A stretch of 16,845 nucleotides of DNA from assembly GCA_029778965.1 (NCBI GenBank), contig JAKPBL010000079.1, forward strand, positions 1-16,845. Reading direction: 5' to 3'. Of this stretch, positions 1-15,423 are shown piece by piece (positions within the stretch are counted from its first letter, which is position 1; every line of letters begins with the position of its first letter). The notes below the pieces were generated by a model. It was not told the origin of the DNA and made no database searches. It worked only from the letters and a program-made list of their open reading frames with translations. The translations under genes were made by a program, and so were the position numbers. This stretch comes from Bacteroidota bacterium (lineage in GTDB: Bacteria; Bacteroidota; Bacteroidia; Chitinophagales; Chitinophagaceae).

Positions 1-768
1 GACGATCGAAAGGCCGGCTACCTTGGCCTGCAGGGAGGCCAGGGGGTTGGTATTGGGCTGGGCGGCAATCTGGTCGCCTTTTACTTTGGCTACAGAGCCC
101 GTCAGATCGCGCTTGTTGGCCGTACCATAACCGATCACCACTACTTCATCCTGCACTTTGGTAGAGGGATTAAGCACTGCTGTTACGCTGGTTTTCCCGG
201 CTATAGACAGCTCCATATCATCGTACCCGATGCTGGATATGATGAGCACGGCATTGTCGGGAACGGTGATCTCGAAGCGGCCGTCAGCATTGGCGGAGGT
301 GCCGATCGACATTCCCTTTACTTTAATGGAGGCCCCGGGCAGCGGGTTACCGGAAGAGTCGGTAACGATGCCCGATATCTTAACGGGATCGGGGGCTTCC
401 ACCCCTTTTTTCTTAATTACCACCAGGAAGTTATCAAGCACTTCGTAGCTGAGTGAAGTGTTGCCGAGAATCCGGTCTAAAATGGAGGTTACTTCCTCAT
501 TCACGGCAGTCAGGTCAACATTTGTATTCTCGCTTACCAGGGCCTGGTTATACAGAAACCGGTAGCTGGATTTTTTTTCGATGCTGGTGAATGCTTTTTT
601 CAGGTTGACATTATCCAATTTAAGACTGATCCGGGTCTGGGAGTAAACCCCGGCAGAAACCTGCAGGCAAGCCACCAGTAAACAGAGCGCAGTCAATTTC
701 ATGATTCTGGTAAACTTTAACCATCTGTGATGCAGCCGGACGGCCCCACCAAGTGACGTTTTTTTCAT
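1..768 (-). CDS. SusC/RagA-family TonB-dependent receptor with STN domain, N-terminal part (cut by window edge)
   Basis: Outer-membrane TonB-dependent transporter of the SusC class; 256 residues are visible and the barrel lies beyond base 1. Visible parts in order: a long basic leader (residues 1-22), a hydrophobic signal segment (23-43, ending near VYSQ), an STN/secretin-like domain (about 45-118, with SYRFLYNQALVSE), a carboxypeptidase-regulatory-like beta-sandwich (about 129-200, starting ISGIVTDSSGNPLPGA), a TonB-box-like DEVVVIGYG (207-215), and the start of the plug. In this family the STN domain signals to FecR-type anti-sigma factors, which fits the fecR and sigma genes directly upstream on the same strand. 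The start at 768 (MKKTSLGG) is chosen because this leader is common in Bacteroidota receptors of this type; the ATG at 702 is an alternative that would begin just before the hydrophobic segment. The substrate is unknown. Confidence 0.93.
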   Translation of the reverse strand, partial: MKKTSLGGAVRLHHRWLKFTRIMKLTALCLLVACLQVSAGVYSQTRISLKLDNVNLKKAFTSIEKKSSYRFLYNQALVSENTNVDLTAVNEEVTSILDRILGNTSLSYEVLDNFLVVIKKKGVEAPDPVKISGIVTDSSGNPLPGASIKVKGMSIGTSANADGRFEITVPDNAVLIISSIGYDDMELSIAGKTSVTAVLNPSTKVQDEVVVIGYGTANKRDLTGSVAKVKGDQIAAQPNTNPLASLQAKVAGLSIV

Positions 769-813
769 ATTTTGAGCAATTAGAGTTACGAAAACGGTAA
801 TTCTGTTTTTCAG

Positions 814-844
814 CGGGAAATGTTGGCGCATTTCCCGTTTTTTT
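814..844 (+). terminator. Hairpin with T-tract in the fecR-susC gap, oriented on the plus strand
   Basis: A perfect 9-bp stem (CGGGAAATG at 814-822 with CATTTCCCG at 829-837) encloses a 6-nt loop and is followed by seven T (838-844). It looks like an intrinsic terminator reading on the plus strand, although both flanking genes lie on the minus strand. On the minus strand the hairpin is not followed by a T-run, so it should not stop the fecR-to-susC transcript. Confidence 0.5.
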
Positions 845-932
845 GTTGTCAGGTGCTGTCAATGGTCATATTCGTAGTTGGTTTTGTCGTTAGCGTGTGC
901 CATCTGTCTATTACTTGTGTTACGGTTATCTG

Positions 933-2108
933 TTACCGGTAAATAACTACCTCGTCCTGGTTGATGCGGTAATTAAAATTGGCCGTGATCGTCAGGGCCC
1001 GCAATGCCTGGAGCAGGGTTTCATGCTCGAAAGTGCCGGTGAGCCGGATTCTTTCCAGCCGCGGCGTTTCAAAGCTGATCTTCACCCCATACCAGCGTTC
1101 CATGCGATTGGCCAGGTCGCGGAACGATTCATCCATAAAGCTCAGCTTGTTCTCCACCCACGATGTTTCCACCACCAGGCTGTCTGCCGGCTGGTAATGG
1201 ATATTGCCAATCACCAGCTTTGGTTCCGCATCGGTCATTTTCGGCTGGCCCTGGCGGGTAGGCTTGCGCAATGAGTCATCGGCTGCCACCACCAGCTTTT
1301 CACTGGGCTTCAATATGAACTTTTCTTTGGGCCGGTTGTGTACGTTCACCTCGATAATACCACGTATCAGACTGGTTTCCACCGTTTTATCTTCGGGGTA
1401 AGAGCGTACGTTGAACGCTGTTCCCACCACCCTGATATCGATGTTCCGGGCATGGATGATAAAGGGATGCGCCGTATCTTTTACTACATCGAAAAAGGCT
1501 TCGCCGGTGAGGTGAACCTCGCGCAATGCCGTATTGAAGTCTTTTCCATAGGTGATCTTGGAGCCGCTGTTCAGCCATACCTGGCTGCCGTCGGGCAACA
1601 GCACTTTGGAACGCGACCCGTTGCGGGTCGACACTTCGCTCTGAACAGCCTGTTGTGCCACGGCCGGCTGTTCCGGGCCGGAAGGCCGGATAAACCACCA
1701 GGTAGCCAGCAACGATGCCGCGATGAATGCCAATGCGGCGATCCGGCGACGGCGCGGGCCGGGCGACGGCGCTGCAAAGCCGGGATCGTCTGGCAAAATA
1801 CCAGGGTCAGCCGGCAAAACACCGGCATTAGCAGGAAAAGATCCGGCCGACGGGTTGGATTCAGCCGCCCCGGATTCGTTGCCGAAATCGCCCCCCTGCG
1901 AAGCCATTCTTTCGAGATGGCGGTCAAACGCGGCTTCCACGTCTTCGGTTTGCGGCGCCGGCTGAAACCAGAGGTCGGTAAGGGTTTGAAAGGGGTAGTG
2001 CAGGTCGGGCGATGTGCGCAGCAATTGCTGCAACTCATCGAGTTCGGGCCGGGTGGCCTCGCCGGCAAGCTTTTTAGACAATAGTTCCCATAACCGGTCT
2101 TCCGTCAT
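933..2108 (-). CDS. FecR-family anti-sigma factor (transmembrane)
   Basis: Inner-membrane anti-sigma factor that should hold the ECF sigma factor encoded just upstream and release it when the STN-bearing receptor signals. With the ATG at 2108 it is 391 residues; a TTG two codons earlier (2114) is possible but less likely. Visible parts: an N-terminal cytoplasmic sigma-binding segment (about 1-50, LWELLSKKLAGEAT), a Pro/Gly/Asp-rich linker with four degenerate heptads (about 89-116), an RRRR stop followed by one transmembrane helix (about 123-141, ALAFIAASLLATWWFI), the periplasmic FecR domain (about 155-260, with LPDGSQVWLNSGSKITY and GEAFFDVVKD), and the C-terminal DUF4974-like domain (about 318-391, with RLTGTFEHETLLQALRALT). 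Four arginines before the helix put the N-terminus in the cytoplasm. It lies 63 bp after the sigma gene and 164 bp before the receptor, so co-transcription with sigma is likely. Confidence 0.95.
   Translation of the reverse strand: MTEDRLWELLSKKLAGEATRPELDELQQLLRTSPDLHYPFQTLTDLWFQPAPQTEDVEAAFDRHLERMASQGGDFGNESGAAESNPSAGSFPANAGVLPADPGILPDDPGFAAPSPGPRRRRIAALAFIAASLLATWWFIRPSGPEQPAVAQQAVQSEVSTRNGSRSKVLLPDGSQVWLNSGSKITYGKDFNTALREVHLTGEAFFDVVKDTAHPFIIHARNIDIRVVGTAFNVRSYPEDKTVETSLIRGIIEVNVHNRPKEKFILKPSEKLVVAADDSLRKPTRQGQPKMTDAEPKLVIGNIHYQPADSLVVETSWVENKLSFMDESFRDLANRMERWYGVKISFETPRLERIRLTGTFEHETLLQALRALTITANFNYRINQDEVVIYR
1761..1844 (-). repeat. Four degenerate 21-bp tandem units inside the FecR linker
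   Basis: The linker before the transmembrane helix reads as four heptads: GSFPANA, GVLPADP, GILPDDP, GFAAPSP. The middle two are closest at the DNA level. The pattern G-x-L-P-x-D-P suggests small in-frame duplications of a flexible spacer. Confidence 0.6.
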
Positions 2109-2171
2109 GCACAAGGATTGTAGGTACAGAGACAGTAAAAAGCAGGCGATACCCCTAAAAAATGTTAAACT

Positions 2172-2756
2172 TTATTTCTTAACAGGGGCGGGAAGCGTGC
2201 GGTTGAGATCGAAACGGACGGCTTCGCCTACCCGGCGAAGGGCAATGGTCATCTGGGCTTCAACGGTTTTGACCGATATTTTCAGCAGTTCAGCGACTTC
2301 GCGGTATTTTAATTCGTCTTCTTTTACCAGCCTGAAGATCAGCTTACAACGATTGGGCAGCCGATTTACGGCCTCGTGCACCATCTTTCTCATCTCGGCG
2401 GTGATCAGGAGCCCTTCGGGGTTAACCGGCAGCACACCCAGTTCCACCGGCAGTTCGGCAAGGTCGATGGTTTGTCCCGGCTGTTCCCTTTCGCGGTAGT
2501 TGAGCGCAGTATTGCGGGTGGCGGTATAGAGATAGAATTTAAGGTTGCCGATATGCTCCAGGCGGGAGCGCTTTTGCCAGATATTGATAAATACATCAGA
2601 TACGATCTCTTCGGCGGCCTGGCGCGATCGGATGATACCGAAAGCGAGGGGCAGGAGGCGGGGATAAAAAGCAGTGAACAGCTCTTTATAAGCAGCCTGA
2701 TCGTGGTAACGTGTCAGCCGGTCTTTCAGGAACACTATTCTGGCATCAGCAATCAT
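2172..2756 (-). CDS. ECF-type RNA polymerase sigma-70 factor (Bacteroidota FecI-like class)
   Basis: Alternative sigma factor of 194 residues that would direct RNA polymerase to the promoter of the STN-type receptor operon once freed by the FecR protein. Region 2 lies at about 24-92, with the -10-binding and core-binding helices (AAEEIVSDVFINIWQKR at 47-63, then LKFYLYTATRNTALNYRER). Region 4 lies at about 122-178, with the -35-binding helix-turn-helix (YREVAELLKISVKTVEAQM). Length and order are normal for this class, and there is no extra C-terminal domain. The ATG at 2756 is the natural start: region 2 begins some 23 residues later. The gene is first of sigma, fecR, susC on the minus strand. 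I see no convincing TAnnTTTG box in front of it. Confidence 0.95.
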   Translation of the reverse strand: MIADARIVFLKDRLTRYHDQAAYKELFTAFYPRLLPLAFGIIRSRQAAEEIVSDVFINIWQKRSRLEHIGNLKFYLYTATRNTALNYREREQPGQTIDLAELPVELGVLPVNPEGLLITAEMRKMVHEAVNRLPNRCKLIFRLVKEDELKYREVAELLKISVKTVEAQMTIALRRVGEAVRFDLNRTLPAPVKK

Positions 2757-2883
2757 GGGTCACCCGCTCGTTTCAGGTTAAAATTACAGATAATCAAATC
2801 ATTGACGGCAATATTTCCTGCGACGTTGGTTGATTTTCGGCAGCTATAGCGGGGTACGAGATGGTTTTGCAAGCTGCGGGTAG

Positions 2884-2914
2884 GGTGTTACCAGTGAGCT
2901 TATGGTGTCACCAG
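2884..2914. promoter_or_regulatory. Pair of GGTGTYACCAG repeats, 20 bp apart, upstream of the tRNA promoter
   Basis: GGTGTTACCAG (2884-2894) and GGTGTCACCAG (2904-2914) are direct repeats with one mismatch and a period of exactly 20 bp, about two helical turns. The second is itself a palindrome (TGGTG-T-CACCA). They lie 20 bp upstream of the -33 box of the tRNA promoter and about 130-160 bp upstream of the divergent sigma gene. An operator role is inference. Confidence 0.35.
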
Positions 2915-2933
2915 GTTGTGGTGCCGGCGCTTG

Positions 2934-2964
2934 TTTGTCACTCGCCCCGATTTCCCTATTTTTG
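2934..2964 (+). promoter_or_regulatory. Bacteroidota-type promoter of the tRNA gene
   Basis: TTTG (2934-2937), 19-bp spacer, TATTTTTG (2957-2964). This is an exact match to the -33 TTTG and -7 TAnnTTTG boxes known for the primary sigma factor of Bacteroidota. Transcription would start near 2970, about 15 bases before the mature tRNA. Confidence 0.85.
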
Positions 2965-2985
2965 CGCTCCATTGTGCTTCGGCAC

Positions 2986-3062
2986 GGGCCCTTAGCTCAG
3001 TCGGTTAGAGCAGCTGACTCATAATCAGCGGGTCGCTGGTTCGATCCCGGCAGGGCCCACCA
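2986..3062 (+). tRNA. tRNA with CAT anticodon (elongator Met or Ile2), CCA encoded
   Basis: The full cloverleaf can be drawn: acceptor GGGCCCT (2986-2992) with AGGGCCC (3052-3058), D-stem GCTC/GAGC, anticodon stem GCTGA (3013-3017) with TCAGC (3025-3029), anticodon CAT at 3020-3022, 5-nt variable loop, T-stem GCTGG (3035-3039) with CCGGC (3047-3051) and loop TTCGATC, discriminator A, and CCA at 3060-3062. It is not the initiator: base pair 1-72 is a normal G-C and the anticodon stem lacks the three G-C pairs. The acceptor stem has C4-G69 and C5-G68 and, with the GGTCGCTGG stretch, resembles E. coli tRNA-Ile2, a TilS (lysidine) substrate. Elongator tRNA-Met cannot be excluded by eye. Confidence 0.95.
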
Positions 3063-3125: not shown

Positions 3126-3152
3126 AAAAAGCCCCGGGTAAGTACCCGGGGC
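3126..3152 (-). terminator. Intrinsic terminator of the minus-strand barrel gene
   Basis: GCCCCGGGTA (3131-3140) pairs with TACCCGGGGC (3143-3152). On the minus strand the hairpin is followed by a T-run (A at 3126-3130 on the plus strand). It lies about 60 bases past the stop codon of the barrel gene and faces the tRNA terminator, so the two convergent units are cleanly separated. Confidence 0.8.
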
Positions 3153-3213: not shown

Positions 3214-3804
3214 CTACCTTTCCCGCACATCATTCTCCACCTGCCTGATCTTCTTCGATGGCAGGTAAATCTGGAAACCGAAGCCAATATTCAGGTTATT
3301 GGAGGTAGGCGCACTGCCGAAACCCACAATCCCATTGTATTTCACCAGCGTTTCCAGCCCGATATTCGGTGTAATGAAATAGGCTACACCCGGGCCGGCG
3401 CCAAAGCCAAACCCGTTGGTATTGTCGCCGACGGCGGGATTATATCCTTCTACACCTGCATTACCTTCTATAAAAAACCGTGCATGGCGCAACAGGTTCA
3501 CGGTTTCCCGGCCGAAATAGTAACGTGATAAAGCACCCACGCCATAGTCGATCCCGGTGCCCGCACCCTTGGCCGTATTAAGGCCGAAATTGAGGTATCC
3601 GCCCACCGCCAGGTTATCGCGAACAAACCAGGCCGCTTTGGGCGTAATACCCAGGGAGAAATTCTTTCCCGACCCCAGGTCGAGGCCTATATTACTGATA
3701 TTGCCGCCGATCAATACATTTCCCTGCTGGATCTGTGCAGTCGCTTTTTGTTGCAGGAACAATAATAAACAGGCAGCCAGCATTGCTACAAAACGTGTTT
3801 TCAT
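3214..3804 (-). CDS. Small outer-membrane beta-barrel protein (porin/OmpA-barrel-like)
   Basis: A 196-residue exported protein. A signal peptide is clear (MKTRFVAMLAACLLLFLQQ, cleavage near KATAQ, residue 24). The rest alternates short Gly/aromatic strands typical of an 8-stranded outer-membrane barrel: GNVLIGGNISNIGLDLG, FSLGITPKAAWFVRDNLAVG, FFIEGNAGVEGY, FGFGAGPGVAYFITPNIGLE, and a final NLNIGFGFQIYLP. The short polar tail after the last strand is unusual for barrels, which often end at an aromatic residue. The start at 3804 is chosen because the signal peptide begins there; the frame stays open 64 codons further upstream but that part has no export signal. It is divergent to the kinase gene. 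The role is unknown; structural barrel or small porin are both possible. Confidence 0.85.
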   Translation of the reverse strand: MKTRFVAMLAACLLLFLQQKATAQIQQGNVLIGGNISNIGLDLGSGKNFSLGITPKAAWFVRDNLAVGGYLNFGLNTAKGAGTGIDYGVGALSRYYFGRETVNLLRHARFFIEGNAGVEGYNPAVGDNTNGFGFGAGPGVAYFITPNIGLETLVKYNGIVGFGSAPTSNNLNIGFGFQIYLPSKKIRQVENDVRER

Positions 3805-3922
3805 AATGAGTTGTTTTTGAATGATATCCGGCCGGCTCAACACCAGCCTGACTAGAGTTGTACAAACCGTCTTATGAAAAGCATGCCACCCTCCCCGCCG
3901 CACCCAACACCACCTGGATTGA

Positions 3923-3940
3923 GGTGAAACCGGGGTGAAA
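3923..3940. promoter_or_regulatory. Two GGTGAAA direct repeats, 11 bp apart
   Basis: GGTGAAA occurs at 3923-3929 and 3934-3940, one helical turn apart, in the 233-bp divergent gap between the barrel gene and the kinase. This could be a tandem regulator site, but the motif is short and may be chance. Confidence 0.2.
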
Positions 3941-3953
3941 ATATCCCGTTTCC

Positions 3954-3982
3954 TTACCCGTCGGGTGGCACCCGACGGGTAA
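3954..3982. promoter_or_regulatory. Large double palindrome between the divergent barrel and kinase genes
   Basis: Two 14-base arms pair perfectly around one central base (3954-3967 with 3969-3982). Each arm also holds its own 11-bp palindrome: ACCCGTCGGGT (3956-3966) and ACCCGACGGGT (3970-3980), 14 bp centre to centre. No T-run follows on either strand, so it is not an ordinary terminator. It ends 55 bases before the kinase ATG. A paired operator for a dimeric regulator, or a cruciform/RNA hairpin in the kinase leader, are possible readings. Confidence 0.45.
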
Positions 3983-4037
3983 AACACTCGTCCCAAACCG
4001 TCCTCATTCTTCGAAAAGTTTCGTAAACTCGTACACC

Positions 4038-6572
4038 ATGTATGGAAAACCTATAATAGCCGGTGGCATTCTGCCGGCCGGCATGATCTTGCTGGCAACG
4101 CTGTCGCTGCTGTTTAGGCACACCCTTTTCCTGGAAAAGAACCCGTTTCTCAATGCCTGGATCATACTCGTGGCGCTGGCCGTTTATTTTCTTCCCCGTT
4201 CCCGTAAAACAGGAAGACGCAGCACGCTCGCCGCATTGCTGATCGCTGTTCCGCTGGCTTTTCCCGGTTCTTTTCAGAGCGATTTCCTATCGTCAGATTA
4301 TCATACCAGTCATTATTTCGTTATCGGCGGGCTGGCCTTCGCCACGCTCCTGCTGCCCGGTCGCCGGGCCCCTTTCGTGTCTCAGTTGCTCGCCCTGGTA
4401 ATAGCCACGGCCGCCGCCCTTCCCCTCCTGAACTACCTGTATAAGGTGGATATCACCGACAGCCGGATCGCCTTCAGCTACCTGTCGCCCGGTATCGCCG
4501 CGTGCCTGCTGTTGCTATCGTTCATCATCATGCTTGAAGAGCCCCGGAAAGGGTTCATTGCGGCCATCAGCAGCGACCTTACCGGCGCCCAGGTTCTTCG
4601 GGTACTCATCCCCGTTACCATTTTCATACCCGTGCTGCTGGGTGTGCTGAGAAGATGGCTGGTCGATAACCGAAACCTCAACGGCCGCTTCGGCACCACC
4701 GTGCTGCTGCTGGTGATGATTTTGCTGATGGTGGCAGCGATATGGTACACGGCTTATCTTATCAATAAAAGAGAGATACAAAGAAGGCAGATGGCCCGTG
4801 CCCTGCGCGTCAGTCAACTGGAGCTGGAAGCCATTTTCAGCAATGCGCCCGATGCGGTGGTAGTGGTGGACCAGAACGGTATCATCGTTCGCTGGAACAA
4901 GGCGGCGGAAAATATTTTCGGCTTTACCGAGCACGAGGTATTGGGCCAGCCCGTGAGCGAAACCATTCTTTTGCCTGCCGACCACCCTGCCTTTGACGCT
5001 GCCTTTGCGGGCCTGACCGATACGGCAACCACCCTGCCGAAAGACCTCACGCTCGAAATGCAGGGGCGGCTGAAGAACGGTTCGTATGTAGACATCTCCC
5101 TCCGCATGGCGCCTTACCTGCTGAACGATTCGGTATATGTAGCCAGCTTCATCCGCGACATCACCGAGTGGAAAAAAGCCGAGGCCCGCCTGAATGCCTT
5201 TAATGAAGAGCTGTCGCTCCAGGTGAAAGAAAAAACCAAAGAGCTGGAGAATGTGCTGGAACGGTTAACAGACGGGTTTGCCGGTCTCGATACCGAATTC
5301 CGCTTCACCTACATAAACCGGCGGGTATCACAGATATTGAAAATGCACCCTTCCGAGCTGGTGGGCCGGAAAATCACCGAGCTCTTTCCGTGGATCGAGA
5401 AATACGATTCGTACCAGGATGTTCTCAATGCTTTCAAAAGCCAGTTGTACACCACCAGCATCAACTATTTCAAGCCTCTCGATTTTTACCACGAGAACCA
5501 TATCTACCCCGACAAAAACGGGGTAACCGTTTTTATACGCGACGTCACTGAAAAAAGAAAAGTGCAGGAGGCATTGCGGCTGAGCATTATGCGGTATAAA
5601 ACCTTCATCGAAGAAGCGGTTGATCCCATCTTCGTGTACGCGCCGGAAAAAAACCGTTATACCGATGTGAACCGCAGGGCGGCCGAGCTGCTCGGCTATG
5701 AAATGGAAGAGCTGCTGGACATCGATCCGCAAGCCACGCTCGAAAAAGGCAGGCTGTCTGACTTCGCCGACGCATTGCAACCCGGTGAACCGACCCGTGG
5801 CGAAACCATCCTGAAAAAGAAAAACGGAACGCTGGTGGAAGTGGAAAGCGCAACGGTGAAGCTGCCCGATGGCTCCCTCCTGTCGTTTGTACGCGATATC
5901 AGCGAGCGAAAAAAGGCCGAGCAGGAAATGCTGCGGCTCAACAGCGAGCTGCGCCGGCTGGGCAATTACCTGCAGGAGGTGCGCGAATCGGAGCGATTGC
6001 ATATTGCACGCGAGATACACGACGAGCTCGGGCAGCAAATGACGGTGCTGAAGATGGATATCATGTGGCTTCGCCGGAACATGGGCACCGCGCCCGCCGG
6101 GGAGCAGCTTGCCAAACTCGACGACCTGGCCGGCCAGGTAAATACCGCCATCAACACGATCAGAAAGATCGCTTCCGAACTGCGGCCCAGCCTGCTGGAC
6201 GATATCGGCCTGGCCGCGGCCATGGAATGGCACCTGTCTGAATTCAGCAAACGAACCGGCATCGGGGTGAAAAGCCGGCTTTCCGATACAGAACAATCGT
6301 TGCCGGATTCAGTTAAAACCAATATCTTTCGAATACTTCAGGAAGCGCTGACCAATGTGGCCCGGCATTCTGCCGCCGATTGTGTCCAGGTCGATTTTTC
6401 AGTAAGCGATGACCTGGTAGAGCTGGAAATCGCCGACAATGGCCGGGGCTTCAATCCGGCGGGCGGCAATCACAAAAGCCTGGGCCTGCTGGGAATGCGG
6501 GAAAGGGCGCACATGATCGGCGCCGAATACGATATAAACAGTGCCCCGGTAAGGGAACCCGGGTGCACGTAA
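4038..6572 (+). CDS. Membrane PAS-domain sensor histidine kinase (HisKA_3/NarX-like), 3' end apparently frameshifted
   Basis: Sensor kinase that should phosphorylate the LuxR-type regulator encoded directly downstream. As read it has 844 residues. About eight transmembrane helices fill residues 8-242. Three PAS-type domains follow: about 260-378 (AIFSNAPDAVVVVDQNGIIVRWN), 405-505, and 515-626, each ending in a FxRDIxE/RDVTE-like signature; a short coiled coil links the first two. The HisKA_3 dimerisation and phosphotransfer helix has H661 in AREIHDELGQQM. The ATPase domain shows an N-box (LQEALTNVARHS, 768-779), G1 DNGRGF (800-805) and GLLGMRERA (816-824). After P837 the frame goes into VREPGCT and stops at 6572, whereas the -1 frame (GGT at 6548-6550 onward) reads GKGTRVHVTYRL and stops at TGA 6584-6586, overlapping the next ATG. 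That is the expected end of this domain, so one G is probably missing near 6548-6549. Confidence 0.93.
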   Translation: MYGKPIIAGGILPAGMILLATLSLLFRHTLFLEKNPFLNAWIILVALAVYFLPRSRKTGRRSTLAALLIAVPLAFPGSFQSDFLSSDYHTSHYFVIGGLAFATLLLPGRRAPFVSQLLALVIATAAALPLLNYLYKVDITDSRIAFSYLSPGIAACLLLLSFIIMLEEPRKGFIAAISSDLTGAQVLRVLIPVTIFIPVLLGVLRRWLVDNRNLNGRFGTTVLLLVMILLMVAAIWYTAYLINKREIQRRQMARALRVSQLELEAIFSNAPDAVVVVDQNGIIVRWNKAAENIFGFTEHEVLGQPVSETILLPADHPAFDAAFAGLTDTATTLPKDLTLEMQGRLKNGSYVDISLRMAPYLLNDSVYVASFIRDITEWKKAEARLNAFNEELSLQVKEKTKELENVLERLTDGFAGLDTEFRFTYINRRVSQILKMHPSELVGRKITELFPWIEKYDSYQDVLNAFKSQLYTTSINYFKPLDFYHENHIYPDKNGVTVFIRDVTEKRKVQEALRLSIMRYKTFIEEAVDPIFVYAPEKNRYTDVNRRAAELLGYEMEELLDIDPQATLEKGRLSDFADALQPGEPTRGETILKKKNGTLVEVESATVKLPDGSLLSFVRDISERKKAEQEMLRLNSELRRLGNYLQEVRESERLHIAREIHDELGQQMTVLKMDIMWLRRNMGTAPAGEQLAKLDDLAGQVNTAINTIRKIASELRPSLLDDIGLAAAMEWHLSEFSKRTGIGVKSRLSDTEQSLPDSVKTNIFRILQEALTNVARHSAADCVQVDFSVSDDLVELEIADNGRGFNPAGGNHKSLGLLGMRERAHMIGAEYDINSAPVREPGCT

Positions 6573-6586
6573 CCTATCGGTTATGA
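6548..6586 (+). pseudogene. Out-of-frame C-terminal end of the histidine kinase
   Basis: Read in the frame GGT (6548-6550), AAG, GGA, ACC and on, these bases give GKGTRVHVTYRL followed by TGA at 6584-6586. The GKGT and the alternating hydrophobic strand are what HisKA_3 kinases carry after the GMRERA helix. The TGA shares ATGA with the start of the response regulator (ATG 6583-6585), a usual coupling in such pairs. The restored protein would be 849 residues. Confidence 0.75.
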
Positions 6587-7218
6587 AAATTCTGATCGCA
6601 GACGACCACGCAGTAGTGCGACGGGGGTTACGGGTAATGATCCACGAAGAATATCCCCATGCACAGATCGGCGAAGTGGCCAATGCAGAATCGTTGTTGT
6701 CGGAGATCGGCAAAGAAGCGTGGACCGTCGTCATTTGCGACATGAATATGCCCGGGCGAAGCGGACTCGATGCGCTTAGCCAGCTCAGGCAACTGGCGCC
6801 CCATGTACCGGTGCTGATCATGAGCGTGTACCCGGAAGAACAGTACGCGGTGCGCGTTATCCGGGCCGGCGCGGCCGGCTACCTCAGCAAAGATTCGCTC
6901 GATACCGAGTTACCCGCCGCCCTCAGGCAGGTGATGAAGGGGAAAAAATACATCAGCGCCGATACCGCCGAAAAACTGGCGGAAGCCGTACAGTCGCCCC
7001 ACGATAAAAAAGCCCACGAAATGTTGTCTGACCGCGAATTTGATGTTTTTAAGGGGCTGGCCGCGGGGAAATCGGTTTCCGAAATTGCCGAACAGCTATC
7101 GCTCGGCGTCACCACTGTGAGCACCTACCGGAGCCGCATTTTGCAGAAATTATCGGTACCCAACAATGCAGCCCTGATCAGGTACGCACTCGAACACCAT
7201 CTCTTTGAAGGATCGTAG
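6583..7218 (+). CDS. LuxR/NarL-family response regulator (REC + HTH)
   Basis: A 211-residue transcription regulator, the expected partner of the upstream kinase. The receiver domain (1-118) has the acidic pair D7/D8, phosphorylated D53 (VVICDMNMPG), S81 (LIMSVY) at the switch position, and K103 (GYLSKDS). After a linker, the LuxR helix-turn-helix (about 146-206) begins LSDREFDVFKGLAAGKSVSEIAEQ and contains the recognition helix TTVSTYRSRILQKL. The ATG at 6583 overlaps the restored kinase stop as ATGA, and falls 10 bases after the stop of the kinase frame as it stands. A palindrome (7215-7230) covers its own stop codon and could be an autoregulatory site. Target genes are not evident. Confidence 0.96.
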   Translation: MKILIADDHAVVRRGLRVMIHEEYPHAQIGEVANAESLLSEIGKEAWTVVICDMNMPGRSGLDALSQLRQLAPHVPVLIMSVYPEEQYAVRVIRAGAAGYLSKDSLDTELPAALRQVMKGKKYISADTAEKLAEAVQSPHDKKAHEMLSDREFDVFKGLAAGKSVSEIAEQLSLGVTTVSTYRSRILQKLSVPNNAALIRYALEHHLFEGS

Positions 7219-7245: not shown

Positions 7246-7289
7246 ATGGCTACAACCCGCGCCCGATGCCGGTAGTAGTTTGTAGCCAT
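7246..7289 (+). promoter_or_regulatory. Inverted repeat that can pair with the start codon of the lone receiver gene
   Basis: ATGGCTACAA (7246-7255) pairs perfectly with TTGTAGCCAT (7280-7289), leaving a 24-nt GC-rich loop. The right arm includes the first two bases of the ATG at 7288, so an RNA hairpin would hide the start codon. No Shine-Dalgarno sequence is visible. Confidence 0.4.
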
Positions 7290-7665
7290 GTATCGCATAC
7301 TGGTTGCAGACGATCACTATGCTGTTCGCCAGGCCCTGCTGGCTCTGTTGAAAGACGCTTTCGAATCGGCCGAGCTCGGCGAGGCGGAAGACACCGATAC
7401 GCTGGTGAAAACCGCGCTGAAACAAAACTGGGACCTGGTGATAACCGACCTGGTAATGCCGGGCGGCGGCGCCTTGCAGGCCATCAAGCAGATCCGGCCG
7501 GCAAAACCCCGCCTGCCTGTTATTGTTATCAGCACGCATTCGGCCGAGATCTATGCAGGCTGGACCCAACGGGGTGGCGCCGACGCCTTCCTCGAAAAAG
7601 ACAAGGTCAGCGCCCTGCTGGTGCCCGTTATCCGCGAAATAATGGACCGGCAGAACAATGTGTAG
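7288..7665 (+). CDS. Stand-alone receiver (REC) domain protein
   Basis: A 125-residue protein made of one CheY-like receiver domain without an output domain. The phosphoacceptor set is complete: D8/D9 (VADDHYAVRQ), D54 (VITDLVMPGG), S82/T83 (VISTHS), K104 (FLEKDK). The sequence is closest in style to NarL-type receivers, yet it ends 21 residues after K104 and no LuxR helix-turn-helix remnant is seen in the 264 bp that follow. The start is fixed: an in-frame TAG lies at 7276-7278. It follows the kinase/regulator pair by 69 bp. It may act as a phosphate sink, a partner-binding switch, or a regulator of the kinase; the sequence cannot decide. Palindromes of the same type overlap its stop and that of the previous gene. 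Confidence 0.9.
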   Translation: MYRILVADDHYAVRQALLALLKDAFESAELGEAEDTDTLVKTALKQNWDLVITDLVMPGGGALQAIKQIRPAKPRLPVIVISTHSAEIYAGWTQRGGADAFLEKDKVSALLVPVIREIMDRQNNV

Positions 7666-13300: not shown

Positions 13301-13624
13301 CACATGAATGCCAAAGCGCCTATTCAGGAAAATGCCGGTTCATTCAGCACCAACAGCGTTCCCAATTCTTATTATGTGGAGAACGGCTCGTACATCCGTC
13401 TTCGTAACGTTCAAGTGGGCTGGACATTCAACAATCCTGGAGTTGCAAAACTGGGTATTAGCCGGCTGCGCTTGTACGTTCAGGGGGCTAACCTGTTCAC
13501 ATCAACCAAATATACAGGCCTTGATCCTGAAATCGGAGGAGGTAGCAATACTGCATTTGGTATTGATGAAGGCGCCTATCCGGTCGTAAAACAGTTCCTC
13601 GTTGGCTTAAACGTAAGCTTCTAA
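10379..13624 (+). CDS. SusC/RagA-family TonB-linked outer-membrane receptor (no STN domain)
   Basis: Outer-membrane transporter of 1081 residues, normal for SusC. Parts: signal peptide (1-25, LCLLFSFLFSQAQ), carboxypeptidase-regulatory-like domain (about 27-100, INGKVINEADKKPLAGVTV), a TonB-box-like SELVVVGYA (106-114), the plug domain (about 117-240, with FRIRGFGSFGTSDPLFVVDG and ASIYGSRASNGVVIITTKRG), and a long beta-barrel ending in a C-terminal phenylalanine (FLVGLNVSF) as usual for barrel insertion. It lacks the STN domain found in the receptor at the left end, so it should not signal through FecR. It forms a lidded uptake complex with the SusD protein encoded 29 bp downstream. The substrate cannot be named. 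Confidence 0.97.
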   Translation: MHFTRLACRVLPMLCLLFSFLFSQAQNQTINGKVINEADKKPLAGVTVTVKGTKTATVTNEDGSFSLRGLDPGAVLQFTSVGFQSSEVAASRAELVSMKSSESIMSELVVVGYATQKKRDLTGAVSVVDVTKMNKQPSPSISDQLQGQVAGVTITTSGSPGEPAKFRIRGFGSFGTSDPLFVVDGAQTTNINDVNPNDIATMQILKDAGAASIYGSRASNGVVIITTKRGRGKTRIAYDGYYGTQRPKVKNPYNMLNPQDQANLKWIALRNTAELNNETVEYNDPIYGSGAAPVLPDYILPFGKKEGDPAVNPSLYYVNPNYTETSDLNSFYQIIRANKTGTDWMSELFSPAPIQSHNLSASGGTDQGSYLFSMNYFNQQGVLMNTYNKRYTLRANSEYKFNKNVRIGENLSYSIIDNPRIGILSEGNDISMAYRQQPIIPVYDIMGNYAGTTGGKIGQATNPVANRQRSINNKGLANRLFGNVYGEIDFLKSFTFRTSFGGEYYSYSGRYFNYPTYENAENSQSNSYGEYAGSGFNWVWSNTVTYSQSFGDHNLKVVAGTEAINEGGTSLDANTTNYFSFSSDYTTLTTGAGAATHSSGRYSRSLASLIGRIDYNYKGRYLLGATVRRDGSSAFGPDNKYGVFPAFSAGWRLSDENFLKDVKWLQDLKVRGSYGVMGNQANLAADNQFTTFNSDRSSTFYDVNGTSNSLVLGFRQGRYGNLAAKWESQKYTNVGFDATIGNRLLEIVADYYVRSVSDMLYAPELPGTAGAATPPTVNIGKMQTSGFDLSIGTHFDINKDFGFDITGTFTTFKNQIKQIADGIQYFAEESRRFNGSTIIRNEVGHPVSSFYGYKVVGFWNSQAEIDAANEQARKATGNPDAVYQTEAAVGRFRYDDKGAGIVTPESRQFLGNPTPKFNYGLNVGGFWKDLDFNFFFYGVHGNQLWNQVRWWTDFYPSFAGGKSYTALYNSWRPDHMNAKAPIQENAGSFSTNSVPNSYYVENGSYIRLRNVQVGWTFNNPGVAKLGISRLRLYVQGANLFTSTKYTGLDPEIGGGSNTAFGIDEGAYPVVKQFLVGLNVSF

Positions 13625-13653
13625 ACAGCCACAGTAACATCAAAAGAATTACA

Positions 13654-15423
13654 ATGAAAAATGCAAAATATCTTATTACCTGTTCTCTACTGGTAGCAGC
13701 CAGTGTAGGACTCGATTCGTGTAGCAAATCTTTTTTGGACAAGCCGTTGTTGGGTAACCTGACCGAGCCTGTACTTGCTACCGAAAAAGGCGTCACAGCC
13801 CTGCTGGTTGGCGCTTATGCTGCGTTGGATGGTCAAAATGTGGGTGGCGGTACATGGGAATCATCGCCCACCAACTGGATCTATGGTTCTGTTGCTGCCG
13901 GTGACGCGCACAAAGGCAGCGATGCCGGTGACCAGCCCCCCATCAACCTTATTGCAACCGGCAAGTCAGATCCTACCAATGGTTTCTTCAATGCAAAATG
14001 GCGCGCCGGCTATGAAGGCATCGCCCGCTGCAACTCCGTGATTCGCGTCGCAAATATTGCCACCGACATCAGTGATGAGGCGAAGACAACCCTGGTTGCT
14101 GAAGCGCGTTTCTTACGCGGTCACTATTATTTTGACCTGAAGAAAATGTTCAACATGGTACCCTGGGTCGACGAAACAACCACCGACCTGAAAGCACCCA
14201 ACACAACAGATATCTGGTCGAATATCGAAGCCGATTTCCGTTTTGCCTATGAAAACCTGGGAGGCACGGCCCCTGCCGTAGGCCGCGCCAATAAATGGGC
14301 TGCCGGCGCTTATCTTGGGAAAGCACTGGTATACCAGAAAAAATTCTCAGACGCCATTCCCGTATTTACCGACGTAATCACCAATGGCACTAATTCCAAG
14401 GGCGACAAATACGACCTCCCTGCCCGTTTCGAAGACAATTTCGACCCCGCTGAGAAAAACAACGAGGAAACCGTCTTTGCTGTTCAAATGGTAGCCAAGG
14501 CCGGAACTGGCGACATCTCAAGCGGTAACGCCGGTGAAATGCTGAACTTCCCCTATGGTAGCAGCCCCTTTGGTTGTTGCGGCTTTTACCAGCCGACGCT
14601 TGACCTGGTGAACTCCTATCGCACCGACGCAAATGGCCTCCCTTATTTCGACACTTATAATAGTGAGATGGTGAAAAACGATATAGGTATTAAGTCCGAC
14701 CAGCCGTTCACCCCGTATACAGGAAGCCTTGATCCTCGTCTGGATTGGACTGTTGGACGTCGGGGCATTCCATACAAAGACTGGGGCAACCATCCTGGCT
14801 ATGACTGGATTCGCGATCAAAGCTTCTCCGGTCCGTATGCACCCAAGAAAAACGTATACTGGCAGGCTACACAAGACACCTACAGCGATCGAATTTCCTG
14901 GGCACCAGGTTCAGCAATCAACGTACATATAATCCGTTTTGCAGACGTGCTGTTGCTGGCGGCTGAAGCTGAAACACAAGCGGGTTCACTTACCACCGCT
15001 ATGGGTTATGTGAACCGGGTGAGAAACCGTGCCGCATCTCCGAAATCCGCCGTATATAAATATGTGAACGATGCTGCTCCTCTTGCCGGCTTTTCCAGCA
15101 CACCAGCTGCGAACTACAATGTAAAGCCTTACCCTGCCGGTTCTCCGGTATTTGCAGCCAAAGAATCGGCGCTGAAGGCGATCTACTTTGAGCGTAAACT
15201 GGAACTTGCAATGGAAGGCCACCGTTACTTTGACCTCTCTCGCTGGGGTATTGCGGCAACGGAAATCAACAAGTTCTACACTTATGAAGGCACTTATATT
15301 TCAGATATTCGCGGCGGCACCTTCACTGCAGGCAAAAACGAATACTTCCCGATTCCGCAAAACCAGATTGATTTGAGCGCAACAGGCGGAACAGCTAGCT
15401 TGGTACAAAATCCTGGTTATTGA
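13654..15423 (+). CDS. SusD/RagB-family nutrient-binding outer-membrane lipoprotein
   Basis: A 589-residue surface lipoprotein that forms the lid of the SusC receptor encoded upstream. The signal peptide ends in a lipobox with C23 (VGLDSC); aspartate at -2 is unusual but the rest fits. The mature start CSKSFLDKPLLG is typical of the family (SusD proteins often begin with a FLD-P motif). The TPR-like helical core is seen at RFLRGHYYFDLKKMFNMVPW, NKWAAGAYLGKALVYQKK, and near the C-terminus in FADVLLLAAEAETQAG and ERKLELAMEGHRYFDLSRWG, ending in YFPIPQNQIDL. These are hallmark SusD/RagB segments. A strong terminator lies 43 bases after the stop, so the transcript appears to be susC-susD only. 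Confidence 0.97.
   Translation: MKNAKYLITCSLLVAASVGLDSCSKSFLDKPLLGNLTEPVLATEKGVTALLVGAYAALDGQNVGGGTWESSPTNWIYGSVAAGDAHKGSDAGDQPPINLIATGKSDPTNGFFNAKWRAGYEGIARCNSVIRVANIATDISDEAKTTLVAEARFLRGHYYFDLKKMFNMVPWVDETTTDLKAPNTTDIWSNIEADFRFAYENLGGTAPAVGRANKWAAGAYLGKALVYQKKFSDAIPVFTDVITNGTNSKGDKYDLPARFEDNFDPAEKNNEETVFAVQMVAKAGTGDISSGNAGEMLNFPYGSSPFGCCGFYQPTLDLVNSYRTDANGLPYFDTYNSEMVKNDIGIKSDQPFTPYTGSLDPRLDWTVGRRGIPYKDWGNHPGYDWIRDQSFSGPYAPKKNVYWQATQDTYSDRISWAPGSAINVHIIRFADVLLLAAEAETQAGSLTTAMGYVNRVRNRAASPKSAVYKYVNDAAPLAGFSSTPAANYNVKPYPAGSPVFAAKESALKAIYFERKLELAMEGHRYFDLSRWGIAATEINKFYTYEGTYISDIRGGTFTAGKNEYFPIPQNQIDLSATGGTASLVQNPGY

Follow-up and report, generated by a model that had tools for sequence, protein, structure and literature searches.

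The 3' end of the kinase gene

The locus considered here raises the question of why an otherwise ordinary sensor kinase gene ends in a C-terminus that its relatives do not share, and of whether a base was lost in the organism or in its assembled sequence. The window, i.e., the whole stretch of 16,845 nucleotides that was analyzed, carries on its plus strand a gene for a PAS-containing HisKA_3 sensor histidine kinase (4038..6572), which as read encodes 844 amino acids. The frame terminates in ...AEYDINSAPVREPGCT; from position 6540, its codons are AGT GCC CCG GTA AGG GAA CCC GGG TGC ACG TAA, which yield SAPVREPGCT and end at 6572. Read one base back, positions 6548..6586 of the plus strand encode GKGTRVHVTYRL and a TGA (6584-6586) that overlaps the ATG of a response regulator gene at 6583. 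Both C-termini and the TGA/ATG overlap had been described in the first-pass annotation, whose coordinates and letters proved correct to the base upon retranslation.

The product of the -1 frame corresponds to the end found in relatives, which comprises the GxGT loop and the last strand of the ATPase domain. Compared with the DNA of two related loci (L032 and L033) and the protein of the best database relative (P0001), the window is out of step by one base from position 6544, at the plus-strand letters CCCCGGT (6544..6550). The apparent deletion falls within the last 13 codons of the kinase. In the zero frame, 7 unrelated residues stand instead of the last 12 residues of the relatives, and the stop occurs 14 bases earlier.

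Conservation of the C-terminus among relatives

The homologue set consisted of 120 listed sequences of the 6960 found, drawn from a database clustered at 90%, which may hide strains with or without the change. P0001, the best relative among the 120 listed, has 849 amino acids and is identical to the window at 813 of its first 837 residues. Its 12 C-terminal residues are GKGTRVHVTYRL, 12 of 12 identical to the -1 frame of the window, and given the close match over the rest of the protein, this agreement is not due to chance. The exact tail was found in P0001 only among the 120 listed homologues, with similar ends bearing small changes in P0002 and P0003 (849 amino acids each) and P0004 (850 amino acids).

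None of the 120 listed homologues contains VREPGCT anywhere, so the orthologue comparison proposed with the first-pass annotation found no relative that keeps this end. Nor is the GxGT strand missing from relatives: a script scored a strict GxGT in 100 of the 120, and all 120 carry, at the position of the tail, a G followed by T, S, A, V, or M and at least 6 further residues. The 20 sequences without a scripted GxGT comprise 10 with GM, 5 with GT but minus the first G, 4 with GxGS, GxGA, or GxGV, and P0014, which has GEGT by eye and was counted as non-GxGT solely through the anchor used by the script. In 19 relatives selected by us from the 120, neither G838 nor G840 varies.

Agreement at the DNA level was sought by scanning 13 loci for a conserved motif upstream of the kinase end. 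Six loci matched on the strand scanned, and in all six the frame continues through the GxGT loop to the stop; the seven loci outside this count include L003 and L004, whose genes are those of L032 and L033. The DNA of L032 and of Flavihumibacter petaseus L033, both from members of the genus, is in frame and shows the same ATGA overlap with the regulator. In L005 (genome G008), the kinase frame is also intact, with no overlap with the regulator. Among 58 other genomes searched, the best match to the kinase gene (72% identical) was found in G003. The simplest reading offered by the first-pass annotation, loss of a single base in the C/G tract, is supported by the in-frame DNA of L032 and L033 and by P0001 at 97% identity. 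As judged from these sequence comparisons, a single additional base would make the gene in the window intact, like its conserved counterparts.

This arrangement is like that of a frameshifted two-component kinase pseudogene in its one-base length change, its otherwise intact gene, and its in-frame relatives; intact orthologues were indeed found in near relatives (P0001, L032, and L033). It differs in that the change lies very late in the gene, that no other decay is seen, and that the candidate comes from assembled sequence. We regard the locus as a broken gene of a common kind or the result of one sequencing slip, with no new mechanism.

Consequences for the ATPase domain

The phospho-acceptor part of the kinase is untouched. 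The HisKA_3 domain is recognized at residues 652-719 (PF07730, 51.3 bits; cut-off, 24), and its HDELGQ motif is present in the window's frame, as in 119 of the 120 listed homologues. The Pfam HATPase_c profile matches the window with 31.3 bits (cut-off, 26.4) and ends at profile position 97 of 111, compared with 44.2 bits and position 107 of 111 for P0001. A complete HATPase_c end, with GxGT loop and last strand, is thus lacking in the window's frame.

AlphaFold2 models were computed from 19 sequences headed by P0001 and from 20 sequences (the same 19 plus the window's frame, placed first), all relatives having been chosen by us from the 120 listed. The ATPase domain of P0001 was modeled with five strands (residues 743-748, 782-789, 793-800, 830-836, and 840-848), and block pLDDT values over residues 821-849 were 85, 86, and 89. 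The window's frame yielded the first three strands only, with values of 70 and 72 in its last two blocks. The ATPase domain is therefore predicted by these models to be down two of five strands. The pTM was 0.37 for both models; as their overall quality is moderate, the structures serve as support rather than proof. Nonetheless, the early halt of the Pfam match and the two strands absent from the model agree with the earlier claim that the kinase frame has no G-x-G-T strand.

Sensor kinases with HisKA_3 and HATPase_c domains, such as VraS and DesK, have both domains and a downstream LuxR-type partner gene in common with the window, and P0001 matches VraS (4gt8) and DesK (7ssj and 3gig) by sequence. 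The alignment of P0001 to VraS 4gt8 extends to residue 846 and includes the GT, whereas the DesK alignments end at residue 838. The window's frame lacks both the GxGT loop and the final strand, which are present in P0001 and align with VraS 4gt8. NarX is another sensor kinase of this kind. We take the GxGT of this kinase to be its G3 box. An excerpt of PMC10779265 states that residues of the G3 box contact the nucleotide, and the boxes are named in a figure legend of PMC3582566.

Recoding and phase variation

Two explanations would make the frame change functional. In the first, programmed -1 frameshifting would let a fraction of the kinase molecules reach full length, such that two C-termini are made. 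The -1 frame is open as far as its TGA and agrees with relatives, and a G+C-rich hairpin spans the frameshift site (6541..6568, plus strand). The fold of positions 6530-6590 has a free energy of -20.7 kcal/mol with a second small stem-loop counted in (z, -2.82; 4 of 200 shuffles equally good), and the same stretch folds more weakly in L032 and L033. However, programmed -1 frameshifting is expected to have its hairpin 5 to 9 bases after the slip site, and here it starts at 6541, upstream of the site. A scan of 6480-6572 for an in-frame X XXY YYZ heptamer gave half-matches and no full one, as the first-pass annotation had noted for the classical heptamer. Recoding is not needed in L032 and L033, whose DNA is in frame, and the out-of-frame layout is thus not conserved in these orthologues. 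We consider recoding very improbable.

In the second, slippage would toggle the kinase on and off. A single-base change does switch the frame, but runs at the site are only 2 to 4 bases long (the longest listed in 6500-6580 are CCCC and GGG), and the relatives seen are all in frame. Phase variation, which the first-pass annotation had left as an option, is unlikely because the CCCCGG site has no repeat tract, and we rank it lowest of all the readings. Both explanations were rejected: there is neither a slippery heptamer nor a repeat tract, and relatives need neither.

The frameshift site has the letters CCCCGG and TAAG in common, perhaps by chance, with an inverted repeat, CCCCGGGTAAGTACCCGGGG, at 3132-3151, downstream of a tRNA gene.

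Real deletion or sequence error

The choice is then between a real, recent, strain-level single-base deletion that disables the kinase, which we favor as the probable reading, and a one-off read or assembly error, which is less probable but retains considerable weight. If an error occurred, the true kinase is intact, with 849 residues, and the consensus lost one base at the G+C-rich hairpin. Such an error would fit the intact relatives, the undamaged remainder of the kinase, the hairpin over the site, and the fragmentary state of the draft genome (3.2 Mb; 680 contigs; completeness, 76%), whose contig C514 is the window in its entirety. However, no long homopolymer is present at the site, and a census of reading frames revealed no second clear case.

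For the census, 81 of the 680 contigs were sampled, mostly a few kilobases long, and compared with 60 stretches of G003 (1,163,536 of approximately 4.0 million bases). The sample is partial, since 66,456 of its 358,614 bases are N and 29 contigs are all N. In total, 91 reading frames (89,061 nt; median identity, 83%) were aligned, and no other clear frameshift was found in them at a detection power of 75% (274 of 364 simulated one-base deletions). Six frameshift flags in five pairs were raised in the G003-to-G000 direction, all by upstream shadow frames similar in another frame; by eye, the true genes of the flagged pairs (on L160, L116, L150, L161, and L046) start further downstream and have open frames in both genomes. 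The ten stop flags were confined to about the first 24 alignment columns. The reciprocal direction (85 frames, 87,114 nt) gave 6 flags: those on L160 and L046 repeat earlier pairs, L131 and L118 were intact on inspection, and one at 13499-13814 of the window, minus strand, is antisense to SusC/SusD-like genes. One reciprocal stop flag lay 43 columns in (L163/L059).

Power was poor at alignment ends, with 12 of 44 deletions detected in the first tenth and 12 of 35 in the last tenth, where the kinase change sits. Therefore, the kinase itself was missed by the frameshift test and caught only in a separate test of C-termini. In the latter, 69 of the 91 pairs could be assessed, and ends differed by at least 4 residues in 5, the kinase among them. 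The tail of a TerC-like gene (L150) was read as natural variation, and L048 and L139 are short frames resembling shadow frames. The remaining pair, L175/L068, is 55% identical; the gene on L175 (minus strand of G000 contig C535, around 1449) stops early, and visual inspection of all three frames revealed no match for its tail.

With no other clear frameshift in the census, indel errors do not pervade the assembly; this lowers, without removing, the chance of a single one. Against a real deletion, the kinase gene shows no other decay, and selection should oppose the change because the lost motif is highly conserved. The weight given to the two readings leans as much on the general expectation for draft genomes as on the census.

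Proposed effect of the deletion

We propose that an unremarkable PAS-containing HisKA_3 kinase lost one base within its final 13 codons, most likely as a genuine mutation that arose recently in the strain sampled. The GxGT loop and final strand would be lost, with 7 unrelated residues in place, and ATP binding and autophosphorylation would probably be abolished or much weakened. The phospho-acceptor helix with its HDELGQ motif would stay, which may leave a product that is either inert or active on its partner as a phosphatase only. A selected kinase-dead variant, whose HDELGQ helix serves as phosphatase or decoy on the coupled regulator and locks the pathway off in this strain, appears improbable, though less so than recoding.

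The main consequence is for annotation: a frameshift flag on the gene is warranted, and the 844-residue product is unsuitable as a model C-terminus for the kinase family. A real deletion would offer a natural experiment on whether any activity persists in a HisKA_3 kinase whose ATPase sheet is missing its last two strands.

The downstream regulator and gene neighborhood

The kinase is adjoined by an intact LuxR-type response regulator gene (6583..7218, plus strand) with Response_reg and GerE domains, 88% identical to its G003 counterpart over all 211 residues; its ATG is the one overlapped by the -1-frame TGA. The zero-frame stop lies 10 bases upstream of this ATG (6572 to 6583), and the regulator is therefore probably still translated; reinitiation could supply it. 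Next after the regulator lies a gene for a receiver-only protein (7288-7665), which is kept in place in G003 (79%), G010 (59%), and G008 (45%).

F. petaseus (G010) and G008 share the window's gene order around the kinase, which speaks against a chimeric contig at this place. A chimeric contig had come into consideration through a split between two G003 contigs and was rejected, as G010 and G008 have sigma-factor/FecR genes near the kinase, like the window. The synteny break coincides with a tRNA-Met gene (2986-3062): positions 1-3060 resemble G003 contig C5, and those from 3237 onward resemble C9. The compared stretches of G010 and G008 showed no counterpart of the barrel gene at 3214-3996. 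Upstream of the kinase, at 3954-3985, lies a palindrome, TTACCCGTCGGGTGGCACCCGACGGGTAA, which is repeated in six G003 stretches (L063, L073, L088, L094, L104, and L108) and in this resembles a dispersed intergenic palindrome.
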